Positions 36,525 through 43,255 of a DNA stretch of 45,737 bases are shown piece by piece. The notes under the pieces are model-generated. The model ran no database searches, was not told the origin of the DNA, and worked only from the letters and a program-made list of their open reading frames with translations. The stretch covers positions 1 to 45,737 of the IMG/VR virus record IMGVR_UViG_3300042996_000007. One strand, given 5' to 3'. This stretch comes from a virus. A program made the position numbers and the translations under genes. Within the stretch, counting starts at the first letter, position 1, and the number at the start of each line of letters is the position of its first letter.

Positions 36525-38239
36525 TGGTCGTCATCCTCTCCTGGCAGTCCGTCGCCAACCTGGGCACGACCGGCCCCAGCGCAGCCGCGGTCGACAACCA
36601 GGGACGCATCTACGCCCTCGGCGGCGACGGACCGACCGGGACCCTGCAGCGCTTCGACCCCAACACCGGGCAGTGGACCACGCTGACCAGCATGCCCACC
36701 GCGCGAAGGCTCGCCGGTGCCGCAACGGACTCGCTGGGCCGCATCTACGCCATCGCCGGGCAGAGGCAGTTCGAGGCCACCGGGGTCGTCGAGCGCTACG
36801 ACCCCGCCACCGGGCAGTGGACCACCCTGCCCAGCATCGTCGCCCGCAACGGCGTCGCGGTCGCCAGCGACCTCGTGGGCCGCATCTACGCCTTCGGCGG
36901 GTTCACCTCGCCCAGCACGTTCAACACCGCACAGCGATTCGACCCGGGCACCAGCGAGTGGACCACCCTGGCCAACCTCCCTGTCGCCCTATCTGGGCAC
37001 TGCGGTGCTAGCGACAACCTCGGACGCATCTACTCCATCGGCGGCACCGACACCGCCGGCACCGCGCGCGCGTTCTACCGCTACGACCCCGCCACCGGGC
37101 TGTGGACCGACCTGGGCGACCTCCCCAGCGACCGCAACAACGCAGCAGCGGTCTCGGACGCGCAGGGCCGCATCTACGTCCTCGGCGGAAGCAGCAGCGG
37201 GAAGCTCGTCGACCGCTACGACCCCGCGACCTCCACCTGGGAGTCCGCCTCCCCCATGGCGTTCAACCACTCCACCTTCGGCGCGGCCCGCGGCCTCGAC
37301 GGACGGCTGTACGCCATCGGCGGCAGCAGCTCCAACGTTGCAGAGCGAGCCAGTTTCAACGCACCCCCCGACGCCCCCACCCTCACCACGATGGCCGCCG
37401 GTGGCACCGTCGACCGTGCCGCGGTCAACCGCGCCTCGCACACCTTCTCCGACCCCAACCCCGGCGACTCGCAGTCCGCGTTCGACCTGCGCTACCGCCT
37501 CGTCGGCGCACCCACCTGGACCACCGTCGCAGCACCGACGCCGAACCCGTTCTACGACTTCGCCGCCGGCACGTTCGCCGCGGGCGACTACGAGCGCCAG
37601 GTCCGCACCTACGACTCCCTCGGCGTGGTCGGCCCGTGGTCGGCCTCGGGGTTCTTCTCTGCCGCCGACGTCCCCGACGGGCCGTCGATCACGTACCCGG
37701 TCAACGGCCAGTTCGTCGAGCTCGAGGAGACCCTCACCTGGTCCACCGCGGACCAGGACGCCTACCAGGTCCGTCGCGTCGCCGACGACGCCGGCGAGCC
37801 AGACCCCGGCGTCGTCTACTTCGACACCGGCGAGGTCGCCAGCACCACCGCCCGCTCGCTGCCGCTGACGTTCACCGTCAACGACCGCATCGAGCACGTC
37901 CAGCTGCGGGTCAAGAACGACGGGCTCTTCTCGCCGTGGACGTCGGTCTCGGTCGAGGTGTCGTTCGCGCCGCCGCCGACCCCGCTCCTGGCGTTCGAGG
38001 CCGAGCCCGACACCGCCTCCCTGGTGCTGACGATCACTAACCCCGAACCAGCCGGTGACGAGCCCGCCGCGGCGTACAACGACGTCTACATCGACGACGG
38101 AAACGGCGAGGAGCGCAAGGCCACCCTGCTGCCCACGAACACCACCTGGCGCTACTGGACCCCCCGCAGCGGCCGCGACTACGCCGGGTCGGTCCGCGTC
38201 GAGGCCGTCGCCACCAACGGCACCACCGCGAGCACCTGA
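36524..38239 (+). CDS. Kelch beta-propeller tail protein with Fn3-like domains
   Basis: Predicted 571-aa protein. Residues 1-280 hold six kelch blades, each with GRIY, then a hydrophobic pair and GG (or AG), then YDPATGQW-like end, at about 28, 73, 119, 168, 216 and 261. A linker leads to Fn3-like beta domains at about 283-380, 380-480 and 480-571 with SxWSxxxxF-type strands. Kelch propellers often bind proteins or sugars, so this is a likely host-recognition protein. AAGGAG lies 10 bases before the ATG, which overlaps the preceding stop by one base. Confidence 0.85.
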   Translation: MVVILSWQSVANLGTTGPSAAAVDNQGRIYALGGDGPTGTLQRFDPNTGQWTTLTSMPTARRLAGAATDSLGRIYAIAGQRQFEATGVVERYDPATGQWTTLPSIVARNGVAVASDLVGRIYAFGGFTSPSTFNTAQRFDPGTSEWTTLANLPVALSGHCGASDNLGRIYSIGGTDTAGTARAFYRYDPATGLWTDLGDLPSDRNNAAAVSDAQGRIYVLGGSSSGKLVDRYDPATSTWESASPMAFNHSTFGAARGLDGRLYAIGGSSSNVAERASFNAPPDAPTLTTMAAGGTVDRAAVNRASHTFSDPNPGDSQSAFDLRYRLVGAPTWTTVAAPTPNPFYDFAAGTFAAGDYERQVRTYDSLGVVGPWSASGFFSAADVPDGPSITYPVNGQFVELEETLTWSTADQDAYQVRRVADDAGEPDPGVVYFDTGEVASTTARSLPLTFTVNDRIEHVQLRVKNDGLFSPWTSVSVEVSFAPPPTPLLAFEAEPDTASLVLTITNPEPAGDEPAAAYNDVYIDDGNGEERKATLLPTNTTWRYWTPRSGRDYAGSVRVEAVATNGTTAST

Positions 38240-38272: not shown

Positions 38273-39430
38273 ATGGCCCGCACCCTCTACGGCGGACGCC
38301 CCGGCGACTTCGTGGCCTCGCTCTACGACCTCGGCCGCACCGGCACCGGCCCGATGCTGCTCGCGCTCCCCACCGACGCCAACGGCGACCCAGCCCCGCT
38401 CACGCTGCAGGTCTACGACGAGCCCGACGGCACCCAGCTGACCGACCTGCTCGCCGCCGACGGCACCACCCCCATCGACGAGGTCGTCGTGCCCACCGAC
38501 GGCCAGGTGCCCGCGTTCTACGGCCCCGACGGGTACGACACCGGCGTCTGGGTCCGCGACCCCGACGGCGACTACTACCGCCTCGACGTCGGCCCCGTCG
38601 GACCACCGGGAGCCGACGGAACCGACGGCGCCCCAGGCGAGGTCTCCACCGCGCAGCTCAACGCCGCCATCGCAGCCGCCATCGCAGGGCTGATCGACTC
38701 GTCCCCCGCGACACTGGACACCCTCAACGAGCTCGCCGCGGCGCTTGGTGACGACCCGAACTTCGCCACCACCGTGACGACGGCCCTCGCCGCCAAGCTC
38801 GCCAAGGCGAGCAACCTCTCCGACCTCGCCAGCGCGTCGACCGCCCGCACGAACCTCGGCCTCGGCACCGCCGCCACCGCCAACACCGGCACCGCCTCGG
38901 GCGAGGTCCCCCTGCTCGGGACGGGCGGGCGCCTCGCCATCGCCCGCGTGGCGTCCGGCACCCCCGACGGCACCAAGTTCGTCCGCGACGACGGCACCCT
39001 CGCCTCGCCGGGGGGCGGCAGCACCCTGTTGAACCGGAAGATCGGGGTGTCGGGCAGCTACAGCATCTCCTCAGGGACGCCAGTCGACGTCGACGCGACC
39101 AACCTCGCGATCACGTTCACTGTGCCCGCCTCAGGCGCGGTCCGAGTGGTGCTCGAGGGGGTCTGCAGCAACAACGCCGGTTACTGCTTCTGGTCACTGA
39201 GGAACGGCACCACCAACGTCGTCACCTCCGAGCGGCTGATCACCTTCTCGCCCTCGCCTACGCTCTACAGGGCTGAGATCTACCTCTCGGGACTGACGTC
39301 TGGCGCCTCCGTGACGTACAAGTGGGCGGCGCGCGTGAACGGCGGAACGCAGATCCTTCGCAGCCTGGACAACGTAGAGTTCGCGAACTTCTACGTCCAC
39401 GCCGCGCGCATGGAGGTTCACGCCGCATGA
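38273..39430 (+). CDS. Tail fibre with collagen motif and phage-fibre repeats
   Basis: Predicted 385-aa protein. Residues 1-105 are an attachment domain. Six G-X-Y triplets lie at 107-124 (GPVGPPGAD onward), then a tail-fibre repeat (LDTLNELAAALGDDPNF) and a NLSDLASASTARTNLGLGTAA motif of trimeric phage fibres. The end (about 250-385) is a beta-rich head domain, probably receptor-binding, with lower GC content, suggesting exchange. GAGGAG precedes the ATG. Confidence 0.85.
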   Translation: MARTLYGGRPGDFVASLYDLGRTGTGPMLLALPTDANGDPAPLTLQVYDEPDGTQLTDLLAADGTTPIDEVVVPTDGQVPAFYGPDGYDTGVWVRDPDGDYYRLDVGPVGPPGADGTDGAPGEVSTAQLNAAIAAAIAGLIDSSPATLDTLNELAAALGDDPNFATTVTTALAAKLAKASNLSDLASASTARTNLGLGTAATANTGTASGEVPLLGTGGRLAIARVASGTPDGTKFVRDDGTLASPGGGSTLLNRKIGVSGSYSISSGTPVDVDATNLAITFTVPASGAVRVVLEGVCSNNAGYCFWSLRNGTTNVVTSERLITFSPSPTLYRAEIYLSGLTSGASVTYKWAARVNGGTQILRSLDNVEFANFYVHAARMEVHAA

Positions 39431-39780
39431 GCGCCGTGACCACGACGCGGCTCATCAACCTGGGCCAGCTCGCCGCCGAGATGGCCGGCAAGCCCCTTTC
39501 GGCTCTCGGCGACCAGGGCACCACGACGGTCACCTGTCACGACCCCGCCGTCACCCAGGCCGCCCTGCAGGCCGCGATCAACGCCCATGTCGCGATCGAC
39601 GAGCAGGCCAACCGCGCCACCCTCGAGCAGCAGGCCGCGACCGCCCTGACCGGTAACCGCGACTTCCTCGCCCTCGCGTCCCCGACGAACGCCCAGGTCG
39701 TCGCCCAGGTCAAGGCGCTGACCCGGCAGAACAACGGCGTCATCCGGCTGATCCTCGGCCGCCTCGACGGCACCTTCTGA
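39427..39780 (+). CDS. Small protein after the fibre, possible fibre chaperone
   Basis: Predicted 117-aa helical protein, Ala/Gln-rich (TQAALQAAINAHVAIDEQANRATLEQQ), ending in RLILGRLDGTF. ATGA overlaps the fibre stop. A chaperone or tail-associated role is inferred from place. A 14-bp perfect hairpin follows. Confidence 0.6.
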   Translation: MSAVTTTRLINLGQLAAEMAGKPLSALGDQGTTTVTCHDPAVTQAALQAAINAHVAIDEQANRATLEQQAATALTGNRDFLALASPTNAQVVAQVKALTRQNNGVIRLILGRLDGTF

Positions 39781-39865: not shown

Positions 39866-40153
39866 GTGACCGAGACCGGCGATCTGCGGGAATCCATCCG
39901 CGACCTCAAGACGTCCATCGATCAGCTCCGCAACGACCTCGTGCGCCGCGACGTCTACGAGTCCGACCAACGCGGCGTCGCGGCACGCATCGCGGTGCTC
40001 GAGAAGGAGCTCGCCGAGCAGGAGGCCCGCGTCAATAAGGCCGAGGAGCGCCGCGCGGCCGACCGCCGCCTCATCATGACCTCGCTGGTGCTGCCGATCG
40101 TGGTCGCCCTGGTGTTGCTCTACATCACCAGCCAGCTCGGCGGTGTGCAGTGA
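39866..40153 (+). CDS. Coiled-coil protein with C-terminal membrane helix
   Basis: Predicted 95-aa protein. Residues 5-65 form a charged coiled coil ([20 protein letters not shown]), then one membrane helix ([20 protein letters not shown]). This fits XhlA-like proteins of lysis cassettes. GTG start after GGGAGG. It overlaps the next gene by GTGA. Confidence 0.7.
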
Positions 40154-40755
40154 TCGACGGGCTACCGACCCGCCCGGTGTGGCACCGCTGGGTCTACGCG
40201 CTCATCGCGGCGATCTTCGCGACGTTCCTGTTCCTGACCCTCGACCGGCTCACCGACCGCATCGTGGCAGCCGAGGAGCAGACAGCGATGGCGGTCGAGG
40301 TGGCCGAGCGGCTGGGCGAGCAGGTCGAGCAGCTCGGCGGCACCCCTGTTGTTGACCCGGACGATCTGTCCGGGCCCGCCGGCCCGCAGGGTGAGCCGGG
40401 CCTTCCCGGCCTCCCTGGCCTGCCGGGTCTGGACGGGCTGGACGGTGTCGACGGCCTGGACGGCGAGCGCGGCCCGGTCGGCCCCCGTGGGCCCGCCGGT
40501 GAGGACGGGCAAGACGGCGCGTCGATCGTCGGCGATCAGGGCCCAGCCGGAGAGCAGGGGCCGCCGGGCCCTGAGGGCGAGCCCGGACCCGCCGGAGCCC
40601 AGGGCCCCGCCGGCCCGAAGGGCGAGCCCGGCGCGACCGGCCCCCAGGGGCCCGCCTGCCCGGACGGGTCGGTGCCGCGTGAGCGCGAAGTGCCAACGAA
40701 CGAAGAACCTCTCGGGGAGACCGTCACCATCTGCGTGAAGGAGAGCCAGCCGTGA
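40150..40755 (+). CDS. Membrane-anchored collagen-like protein
   Basis: Predicted 201-aa protein. One membrane helix (about 14-31), a short coiled coil (35-62), then collagen triplets: sixteen from G75 to D122 and a second run from G128 to A169, broken at G123-ASIV. The end has two cysteines (C170, C195). Collagen triplets can form trimer rods. With its helix at the N-terminus it may be a membrane-tethered rod in the lysogen or during lysis. Collagen motifs in phages are usually in tail fibres; a membrane form in the lysis cassette is unusual. Confidence 0.8.
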
Positions 40756-41204
40756 TCGACGAACCCCTCAACCTGCTCCGCATGGCCAACGTGGCCCTCA
40801 CCCTCGCCGCCGGCGGCGGGCTGTTCGTCCGCGGCAACGACGACTGGGCGCGCCTCACCCACGGGTGGCGCACCACCCTGGCCTTTCTCGTCGCCACCTT
40901 CCTCGTGCTGTCCTACGGCTCCGTCGAGGCGCTCTACCAGGAGGCCCCGGTCGGAGCCCGCACCGTCGCGCTCACCGTCGTCAGCCTCGGCGTCGTCGTC
41001 GGCCTGGTCCTGGCACGCCGCGACGTCACCACACCCGGCGCCCGTGTCGTCGAAGCCTCCCGCGTGCTCGACGCCGTCGCCCGCGCCGACAACGGAGAGT
41101 TCGGCGAGCCGTGCACCCACCCCGGCTGCGTTGCTGCCCGCAACGAGCTGCGCCGCCTGCTGCTGCGCGAGCACCCCGTCGACCACGGCCCCCTCGCCTC
41201 CTGA
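40752..41204 (+). CDS. Three-helix membrane protein, holin candidate
   Basis: Predicted 150-aa protein with likely membrane helices at about 10-26, 41-58 and 70-87, then a cytoplasmic tail with CTHPGC. The three-helix plan fits class I holins, but the 60-residue charged tail is longer than usual. GTGA overlap with the collagen-like gene. 68 bp separate it from the endolysin. Confidence 0.65.
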
Positions 41205-41272: not shown

Positions 41273-42094
41273 GTGGCCTACCTCGACGACCACCCCAACC
41301 CGTACCAGCGCCAGCAGCGCGATCGCTACGACGACCCGTCCGGCGTCATCGTCGTGCACACCGCCGAGTCCGCGCTCGACGTCATCGGCGAGGACACCGG
41401 AGCCGAGGGCGTCGCCGCGTTCATCGCCCGCCGCACCGACCCCGGGTCCTATCACCGCCTCGCCGACTCCGACACCGTCGTCGCGGTCGCCCGGTTCGAG
41501 ATGTGCACCTACGGCGACGGCACCGGCTCCAACGACCACGCCATCCACGTCTCCTTCGCCTGCCGCGCCGCCGACTGGCCCGCCATGTCGGCCGAGCGCA
41601 GGGCCGCCTTCATCGCCAACGGTGCCCGGGCCGCGGCCGAGGCCAACACGTGGCTGCAGGAGCACCGCGGCATCACCGTCCCGCCTCGCCGCATCACGCG
41701 AGTCCAGTCCGACCAGAAGGTCCCTGGCTTCATCAGCCACGGCGAACGCGACCCCGGCCGCCGCACCGACCCCGGCCCCGCCTTCCCGTGGGACCTGTTC
41801 ATCGACACCTACGCCGCACTCACCACCGACCAGGAGGACATCGACATCATGGACGAGAAGACCAAGGCCTACTTCGACGCCCGCTTCGACGGCTCGAAGA
41901 AGCGCGACCAGGCCCACCGCGCCGCCGACCGCAAGATCGCCCGCGCCCAGGCCGAGCAGCTCGGCGCGCTCGGCGAGGCCATCGCCGCCGGCGACCAGCG
42001 CACCCGCGACGTCGTGCGCCGCAACACCGAGAAGGTCCTCGCCGCCCTCGACGAGGCCGACGCAGCCGAAGCCACCGAGGACACAGAGCCGTGA
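41273..42094 (+). CDS. Endolysin, N-acetylmuramoyl-L-alanine amidase (Amidase_2)
   Basis: Predicted 273-aa lysin. The amidase domain (about 10-175) has VVHTAES with His29, HAIHVSF near 89-95, and SHGERDPG...TDPG with His156 and Asp166 as zinc ligands. It cleaves the MurNAc-L-Ala bond. Residues 190-273 form a helical, charged C-terminal domain, probably for oligomerisation or wall binding. The GTG at 41273 follows AAGGAG by 6 bases. An in-frame ATG at 41849 with AGGAGG upstream might yield the C-terminal part alone. Confidence 0.9.
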   Translation: MAYLDDHPNPYQRQQRDRYDDPSGVIVVHTAESALDVIGEDTGAEGVAAFIARRTDPGSYHRLADSDTVVAVARFEMCTYGDGTGSNDHAIHVSFACRAADWPAMSAERRAAFIANGARAAAEANTWLQEHRGITVPPRRITRVQSDQKVPGFISHGERDPGRRTDPGPAFPWDLFIDTYAALTTDQEDIDIMDEKTKAYFDARFDGSKKRDQAHRAADRKIARAQAEQLGALGEAIAAGDQRTRDVVRRNTEKVLAALDEADAAEATEDTEP

Positions 42095-42240: not shown

Positions 42241-42971
42241 TCACGGCCCGCCGGCTGCGGCGCGACCTCGGGCTGAGCGCGTGGAACACCCACAACGCCA
42301 GCGCGAAGAGGCTGCGCCGCTTCATCCGGTCCCGGATCCGGCGCGGCGACGTCGCGATCGTGCTGACCGAGGTGTGGGCGCGTTACGACGACCTGATCCG
42401 CATAGCCCAGGACCTCGGCCTCACCGTGCTCGGCGAGCGCCCCGAGCCCGGCGCGCGCGGCCGCAACCCCGTCCCCGAGCAGGGCGACACCGTCATGCTC
42501 CTCGCCCCGGCCTTCGAGCTCGAGTCCTGGGACGTCATCGAGCTGCGCGAGCAGTGGCTCGTGCACTCCTCGAACCGCGTGCACCGCCCCCGCCGGCTCA
42601 TCCAGGCCCGCGGCCACGTAGACGGCCAGCGCCTCGAGCTTCTCGGCGTGCACGGCCCCACCGACATCGAGGCGAACGAGCACGCCATGGCCGAGTTCGT
42701 CGACGTGGTGTCGAAGATCCTCACCAAGACCAAGCCCGGCACCATCAGCGCCGCCCTGGGCGACGTCAACCTGCGCCTCGACGAGGCCCGCGCCTGGGCC
42801 ACCCGCATCGGCGCGCAGGTGTCCGGCCACGGCCCCGACCTGGTGCTCGCGATCGGCGCGTTCGTGTCCTCGCGCACCCGCGGCCGTCGCGGCTCCGACC
42901 ACTTCGCGCTCGCCCACAAGCTCAGCCGCCGGCGGCCCCGCCGTCGACCTTCCCGACGCAAGGAGACCTGA
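42237..42971 (+). CDS. Endonuclease/exonuclease/phosphatase (DNase I-like) family protein
   Basis: Predicted 244-aa protein. EEP motifs appear in order: LSAWNTHN (Asn17 or 20), VLTEVW (Glu45), VHGPTD (His139), ALGDVNLR (Asp176, Asn178), GPDLVLAI (Asp201) and GSDHFAL (Asp221-His222). This is a full set for metal-dependent phosphodiesterases such as DNase I. It has no signal peptide, and its tail is very basic (RRRPRRRPSRRK). Placed between endolysin and holin, it may destroy host DNA at lysis or act on released DNA. GTG start overlaps the previous stop. Confidence 0.8.
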   Translation: MITARRLRRDLGLSAWNTHNASAKRLRRFIRSRIRRGDVAIVLTEVWARYDDLIRIAQDLGLTVLGERPEPGARGRNPVPEQGDTVMLLAPAFELESWDVIELREQWLVHSSNRVHRPRRLIQARGHVDGQRLELLGVHGPTDIEANEHAMAEFVDVVSKILTKTKPGTISAALGDVNLRLDEARAWATRIGAQVSGHGPDLVLAIGAFVSSRTRGRRGSDHFALAHKLSRRRPRRRPSRRKET

Positions 42972-43255
42972 TGACCATTCTCGACCGCATCTACCGTGAG
43001 CCCGCCGCCTTGCTCGCTCTGGCTGCTGCCGTGCTCGCCGTGCTCACCTGGCAGGGCGTCCTCGACGACACCGGCGCCGCTGTCGCGCTCGGCGTGCTTA
43101 CCGCTGCCATCGGCGCGCTTCGCTACTTCGTGACGCCGTCGGCCGAGGTCGTCGCCCAGCGCAAGCCCGGCGACCGTGCCGCCATCGCAGGCCCAGCCGC
43201 CGGGCACGTCGAGACCGGCGACAAGGTCGTCGTGCGACCGCTGCTGCCCGAGTAG
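42971..43255 (+). CDS. Two-helix membrane protein, holin
   Basis: Predicted 94-aa protein with helices at about 12-27 (ALLALAAAVLAVLTWQ) and 33-52 (GAAVALGVLTAAIGALRYF), then a polar tail. That is the layout of class II holins. AAGGAG lies before the ATG. It is the last gene of the late operon and is followed by a strong hairpin. Confidence 0.75.
   Translation: MTILDRIYREPAALLALAAAVLAVLTWQGVLDDTGAAVALGVLTAAIGALRYFVTPSAEVVAQRKPGDRAAIAGPAAGHVETGDKVVVRPLLPE

Follow-up and report, generated by a model that had tools for sequence, protein, structure and literature searches.

The window analysed here is a 45,737-base viral record and carries a gene for a membrane-anchored collagen-like rod protein, which forms a conserved pair with the gene preceding it. 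The anatomy of the protein, the conserved pair, a lysis-gene context, a narrow range of rod length and purifying selection could be observed in a family of 114 members. In our preferred reading, to which we give about an even chance, the rod protein serves phages of actinobacteria as an accessory factor in lysis, with a position and an architecture similar to those of the corynephage protein LysZ.

Anatomy of the rod gene and its neighbourhood

The features of the rod gene and the surrounding genes are collected in the table. The original prediction had described an N-terminal membrane helix, about 30 G-X-Y triplets with one break, two cysteines at the end, and a location between two membrane proteins ahead of the endolysin. 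All of these were borne out: the helix was recovered by AlphaFold2 together with hydropathy, the two runs are perfect and add up to 31 triplets around a two-residue break, both cysteines belong to the C-terminal hairpin region, and the neighbours are the partner, a further membrane protein and an Amidase_2 endolysin.

Features of the rod gene and its neighbourhood in the window
Feature	Position	Strand	Details
Tail-fibre-like gene	38273-39430	+	Has a short collagen stretch
Small protein	39427-39780	+	No assignment given
Partner (XhlA/holin-like)	39866-40153	+	95 aa; N-terminal charged helical region, C-terminal membrane helix
Collagen-like rod gene, membrane-anchored	40150-40755	+	GTG start, 201 aa
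Uninterrupted helix of the rod protein	40180-40332	+	Residues 11-61, membrane segment and then coil; AlphaFold2 and hydropathy
Family signature L..QV..LGG.PV	40312-40350	+	Residues 55-67, directly N-terminal to the rod
Collagen run 1	40372-40524	+	Residues 75-125, 17 G-X-Y triplets
Two-residue break IV between runs	40525-40530	+	GASIVG, G4G interruption
Collagen run 2	40531-40656	+	Residues 128-169, 14 G-X-Y triplets
C-terminal tip	40657-40740	+	Cys170, Cys195; predicted two-strand hairpin 174-180/191-197 (AlphaFold2)
Membrane protein, possible holin	40752-41204	+	150 aa, two predicted membrane segments; overlaps rod gene by 4 nt
Endolysin, N-acetylmuramoyl-L-alanine amidase (Amidase_2)	41273-42094	+	Pfam E 1e-5; phrog_12609 endolysin E 3e-29
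Second small protein, holin candidate	42971-43255	+	Two predicted membrane segments; hydropathy only

The N-terminus of the rod protein is short and basic, and the hydrophobic segment begins at about residue 12 by hydropathy. In the AlphaFold2 model, built with 48 relatives, block pLDDT values were 91–97 for the membrane part and about 80 for the coil, which was predicted as a long helix and is a putative coiled coil. Confidence was low across the rod, as expected because a single collagen chain was modelled; a Foldseek search with this monomer model gave meaningless output, a single collagen chain being unfolded, as expected. The longest perfect run comprises 17 triplets, whereas shuffling the residues 2000 times never gave more than 7, and the longest G-X-Y run in the other five frames of the gene was 2–4. 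The match to Pfam Collagen (PF01391) reached 60 bits (E 1.9e-16), above the curated cutoff of 27.2. Within the signature preceding the rod, L55, Q58, V59, G63 and P66 were invariant in an alignment of 50 relatives.

The rod gene overlaps each of its neighbours by 4 nt (GTGA), its start overlapping the stop of the partner. The membrane segment of the window partner lies at about residue 66 by hydropathy. This partner matched phrog_38457 (E 4e-6) and, at E 0.003–0.005, phrog_937 and phrog_1193 ('hemolysin'); no match to XhlA (PF10779) was found at E 0.05, and the window partner was not placed in that family. No relative was found when it was searched against viral contigs. The window pair is regarded as a divergent member of the family; its assignment derives from the architecture and the motif, from the two cysteines in the tail and the 4-nt overlap, and from weak matches to PHROGs. 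The membrane protein directly downstream of the rod gene had no family match in Pfam or PHROGs. A sigma-70 scan revealed no promoter, and the one terminator-like site was given no weight. Farther upstream, before the tail-fibre-like gene, a tail-region ORF (approximately 36530-38239) contains repeats of the form 'GRIYALGG..RYDP.T..W..L', which we take to resemble a Kelch propeller.

Matches in a DNA similarity search were confined to the endolysin (Pam4 and three Arthrobacter phages). Over 24% of the query, the window endolysin shares 80% DNA identity with an amidase gene (L002 15001-15541) in 'Pseudanabaena phage Pam4'. As this phage was reported from a cyanobacterium, either the gene was transferred recently or the host label is doubtful. 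Pam4 gp72 and gp73 were ruled out as a rod-partner pair, and the two membrane genes ahead of the endolysin in phage Aoka are likewise not the pair.

The family and its holin-like partner

A first scan of viral contigs using the whole rod protein as query returned 80 loci, 18 of which encode an N-terminal membrane helix ahead of the collagen; L066, which looks like a secreted protein, was left out of this set. The second scan was based on an alignment of the N-terminal part, from which most of the collagen had been left out, with the pattern [AQ]LA[QRN]QV[RQE]xLG. It produced 190 stretches, of which 126 were relatives and 80 were kept, and G-X-Y repeats followed the motif in all 80 (three being cut by the contig end). 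A genome scan with a closer motif query added 41 loci, all from Streptomyces, Streptantibioticus or Actinacidiphila, and 16 members were added by hand (the window, 11 first-scan loci and four named-phage records). The merged 135 loci formed 114 clusters below 90% identity, which constitute the members described here. Three contigs end within the rod gene; two of these (L117, L150) are absent from the member set.

The linker motif QVxx[LM]GxxP[VI] was present in 101/114 members, a frequency that is not independent because motif queries were among the member searches. Exactly two cysteines follow the rod in 108/114 members, and positive charge is higher before than after the membrane helix in 105/114. 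The G4G break occurs in 69/114 members, with 57 of the counted breaks at triplet 3. Tails begin in a CPxG-like form in 76 members and carry a W/FTF form in 30; RR occurs within the last 12 residues in 76/114, and tip sequences vary. The rod measured 100 ± 12 residues (CV 0.12) in the 112 complete members, whereas it measured 291 ± 186 residues (CV 0.64) in the controls, which were the 53 complete sequences among 61 first-scan collagens without a membrane helix. Nei-Gojobori dN/dS medians were 0.25 for the N-terminal part, 0.20 for the collagen and 0.24 for the tail, calculated from up to 263 usable of 276 non-independent pairs, and reveal purifying selection on the family. Rod length is kept within narrow limits and rod sequence is freer to vary, a pattern that a spacer would be expected to show.

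The N-terminal profile matched 22/295 genomes of one genus at E below 1e-15 and 44 at 1e-4; the genus of genome G001 was taken as Streptomyces because L166 is a Streptomyces contig. A phylum-wide sample gave strong matches in 2/396 genomes and matches at 1e-4 in 5, and the weak genome matches (E 1e-4 to 1e-6) are probably unrelated. Metagenomic members with other neighbours (L007 type) indicate that the family is not restricted to Streptomyces. Several members depart from the common layout. L048, L059 and L069 are divergent and have no clear partner, the assignment in L059 being doubtful (231 nt away); here the rod gene lies directly ahead of an endolysin-like ORF, and a cysteine pair occurs in the linker preceding the rod. 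In L054 (5998-6654), a long break within the rod holds two cysteines (QCLLEPSKC). The copies in L171 (Streptantibioticus silvisoli) and L186 (Streptomyces atriruber) look decayed and have a short rod, and neither a partner nor an endolysin was found at these two loci.

In 106/114 members, the end of an ORF that encodes a membrane segment near its C-terminus lies between −60 and +12 nt of the rod start, compared to 8/364 other genes of the member loci and 1/53 control collagens under the same criterion. An exact 4-nt overlap between partner and rod gene was observed in 100/114. Searches with three partner proteins alone returned 39, 16 and 29 loci, and the rod gene lay directly downstream in every readable one (37/37, 16/16 and 29/29; 82/82 together), two of the 39 being too short to tell; these locus sets overlap earlier contigs and one another's kin. 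Among 13 partners scanned, phrog_38457 (unknown) was matched by 10, phrog_689 (holin) by 4 and two 'hemolysin' PHROGs by 3 and 2, while Pfam XhlA matched 1/13 (E 1.9e-4). The partner appears to be an obligate, XhlA/holin-like coiled-coil protein with a C-terminal membrane helix.

Such a partner could also be accommodated if the collagen only trimerises the membrane helix and the two proteins form a holin/antiholin complex that sets lysis time. The obligate holin-like partner, its resemblance to XhlA and the 'hemolysin' and 'holin' matches of some partners are in line with this, as are the F1 mycobacteriophages, in which, according to PMC13056207, lysis is jointly controlled by two distinct holin-like proteins. 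However, a bare trimeriser would need neither a rod of such constant length nor a conserved two-cysteine tip, and we regard a purely regulatory role as improbable.

Lysis-gene context and existing labels

Context statistics derive partly from family-seeded searches; the members were gathered using a collagen-containing query, motif queries and named phages. In 101/114 members an ORF of 180 aa or more was present upstream, and the nearest such ORF matched phrog_1493 endolysin in 77 cases, Amidase_2 in 54 and GH25 in 9. A same-strand endolysin was found within 2.5 kb in 99/114 members (94 upstream, 5 downstream) compared to 3/61 control collagens, with endolysin models built from 15 seeds (7 annotated or from the window, 8 identified here), a training on family loci that favours the family over the controls. 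The occurrence of the endolysin on either side indicates that the neighbourhood is kept while gene order changes. In a further 5/114 members the endolysin lies only farther upstream, and none was found in 10/114 member loci. Of the 71 loci in which at least 150 nt separate the endolysin from the partner, 50 have a small ORF encoding a membrane segment in this gap.

Isolated phages could be added to the family by a suitable choice of query. No hit was obtained with the whole rod protein in a tblastn search against them at E 1e-5, nor with a shortened L023 protein at E 1; a motif query recovered Streptomyces phages Kromp and OnionKnight, and a full relative as query added SF1 and SF3. The gene order is endolysin-holin-gp27-gp28 in Kromp, endolysin-holin-holin-gp25 in OnionKnight, where the second 'holin' is the partner, and endolysin-holin-'hol-like chemotaxis'-'collagen like minor tail' in SF3, so that a holin is annotated in all three cassettes. 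In Kromp and OnionKnight the pair closes the late block and adjoins regulators and integrase.

This last arrangement, in a place usual for lysogeny genes, would also fit a protein of the lysogen surface that is merely housed near lysis genes, its rod passing through the wall to mask receptors, exclude other phages or alter hyphal adhesion. The window itself presumably has an integrase at its end, as judged from inspection of its sequence. The variable tips, with their frequent RR motif near the end, agree with such a display, as do the 5/114 loci where other genes separate the pair from the endolysin. These are the prophages L168, L153 and L185 (also L131 and L152). The intervening ORF in L185 has a match among PHROGs to a glycosyltransferase classed as 'moron', and a similar ORF occurs in L168 and L153; opposite-strand ORFs lie just ahead of the pair in two of these three inspected loci, and the pair may thus have its own promoter there. 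Against surface display stand the 4-nt overlap with a holin-like partner in most members, the failure to find the partner without the rod in any readable locus, and an endolysin neighbourhood that is kept across differing gene orders, whereas genes for exclusion should be found in more varied places. Moreover, SF1 and SF3 are called virulent in the title of PMC5336643. Surface display is therefore considered unlikely, at perhaps one chance in a handful.

The family is already represented in PHROGs under a virion label, as phrog_18350 'tail fiber protein' matched 49/49 family members scanned (best E 6e-75). The rod genes of the four Streptomyces phages are labelled 'minor tail protein' (Kromp), 'hypothetical' or 'collagen like minor tail' (SF3), while in SF1 the gene was missed, a reverse-strand ORF (L165 4503-5030, gp45) being annotated over it. 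The main text of PMC5336643, which describes SF1 and SF3, contains no word beginning with collagen or holin. Taken at face value, these labels would make the rod protein a minor tail protein or tail fibre of the virion. The N-terminal membrane helix, the holin-like partner and a location near endolysin rather than tail genes speak against it, and phage collagens without a membrane helix are much longer and more variable than the rod. The window also has a separate tail-fibre-like gene. As far as can be seen, the tail labels derive from collagen similarity, and a virion role is very improbable. A full-text literature search, judged mostly by titles and with the original LysZ paper outside its scope, returned no paper on a collagen protein that is anchored in the membrane and encoded among lysis genes.

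Proposed mechanism and comparison with known systems

Under the preferred reading as a lysis accessory factor, the rod protein would be made late and co-translated with its holin-like partner, and would insert through its single membrane helix with the N-terminus inside and the C-terminus outside. The coil and the collagen triplets suggest a trimer, which would form a stiff rod. Collagen rises 0.29 nm per residue, so the 93 collagen residues would span approximately 27 nm, about as much as a Gram-positive wall is thick; the roughly 30 helix residues outside the membrane would add approximately 4–5 nm. Such a rod could bring its tip, presumably closed by a disulphide, into the thick wall or across it, where the tip may contact polymers of the wall or polymers anchored in the membrane. 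Once the peptidoglycan is cut by the endolysin, the rod protein may help to loosen the remaining envelope and let the progeny out, as proposed for LysZ and in a loosely spanin-like manner.

A bolder reading, to which we give somewhat less than an even chance, is that the pair represents a new class of Gram-positive lysis factor. A membrane-anchored collagen rod of fixed length and its obligate tail-anchored partner would then form a two-protein device through the actinobacterial wall, either disrupting wall polymers or coupling holin triggering to wall failure, and convergent with LysZ and spanins. LysZ is only a beginning in explaining how lysis is completed in thick-walled actinobacteria. 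The rod family would be a second solution, conserved and readily recognised, that occurs in Streptomyces phages available for culture and has been concealed by tail-fibre labels. If this is true, collagen serves within the envelope as a rod whose length is fixed, and the annotation of a whole PHROG must be corrected.

The closest functional likeness is to LysZ. As cited in PMC13056207 and PMC13148394, LysZ of corynephages has a single membrane helix, an N-in/C-out topology and a place after lysin and holin. In the Corynebacterium glutamicum phages CL31 and Cog, it shares with the rod protein one N-terminal membrane helix, a long extracellular part and the proposed N-in/C-out topology; its gene is the last of lysin-holin-lysZ, and the presumed CL31 gene, clg_49, shares 4 nt with the preceding holin gene. 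Deletion of LysZ resulted in small plaques and could be rescued in a host without lipoarabinomannan, according to PMC13056207. Several mycobacteriophage clusters encode single-helix proteins of low sequence similarity at the same position (PMC13148394), which fits a convergent use of this position. The assignment of clg_49 as LysZ of CL31 was inferred from position and size; the gene (L207 21899-22414, − strand) is annotated 'exonuclease' and reads as a helical protein with a single membrane helix. Unlike the rod protein, the presumed CL31 LysZ is helical and has no collagen, and its partner is a two-segment holin rather than a tail-anchored coiled coil. An hhalign comparison of the rod N-terminal profile against clg_49 gave a probability of 0.2%, and no homology to LysZ is claimed. 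The rod family has in common with LysZ one predicted N-terminal membrane helix with the bulk outside and a location in a lysin-holin cassette. Because position and architecture agree and sequence does not, the claim is that the rod protein works like LysZ, not that it is a homologue.

Like XhlA of Bacillus PBSX-type lysis cassettes, the partner is short and combines a coiled coil with a membrane helix at the C-terminus, whereas its profile matches to XhlA are weak, as given above. Collagen-like phage tail fibres (phrog_1806 and phrog_18350, as labelled) share the G-X-Y repeats, but the ordinary ones have neither a membrane helix nor a lysis partner, and their collagen is longer and varies more.

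To our knowledge, the Streptomycetaceae, which include the named hosts, have no outer membrane. The spanins of Gram-negative phages (Rz/Rz1 and unimolecular) are, like the rod protein, membrane-anchored and extended, encoded beside holin and endolysin, and proposed to function once the wall has been cut; the rod protein differs in having collagen in place of a coiled coil and in belonging to phages of Gram-positive hosts. The original prediction had suggested a spanin-like link between membrane and wall. The defining activity of spanins, bridging and fusing the inner and outer membranes, does not carry over, as no lipoprotein partner or second membrane element was seen in the family. The idea is otherwise supported in part, by the predicted membrane anchoring, a rod placed outside by the charge bias, the lysis cassette, the near-constant length and the published precedent of LysZ.
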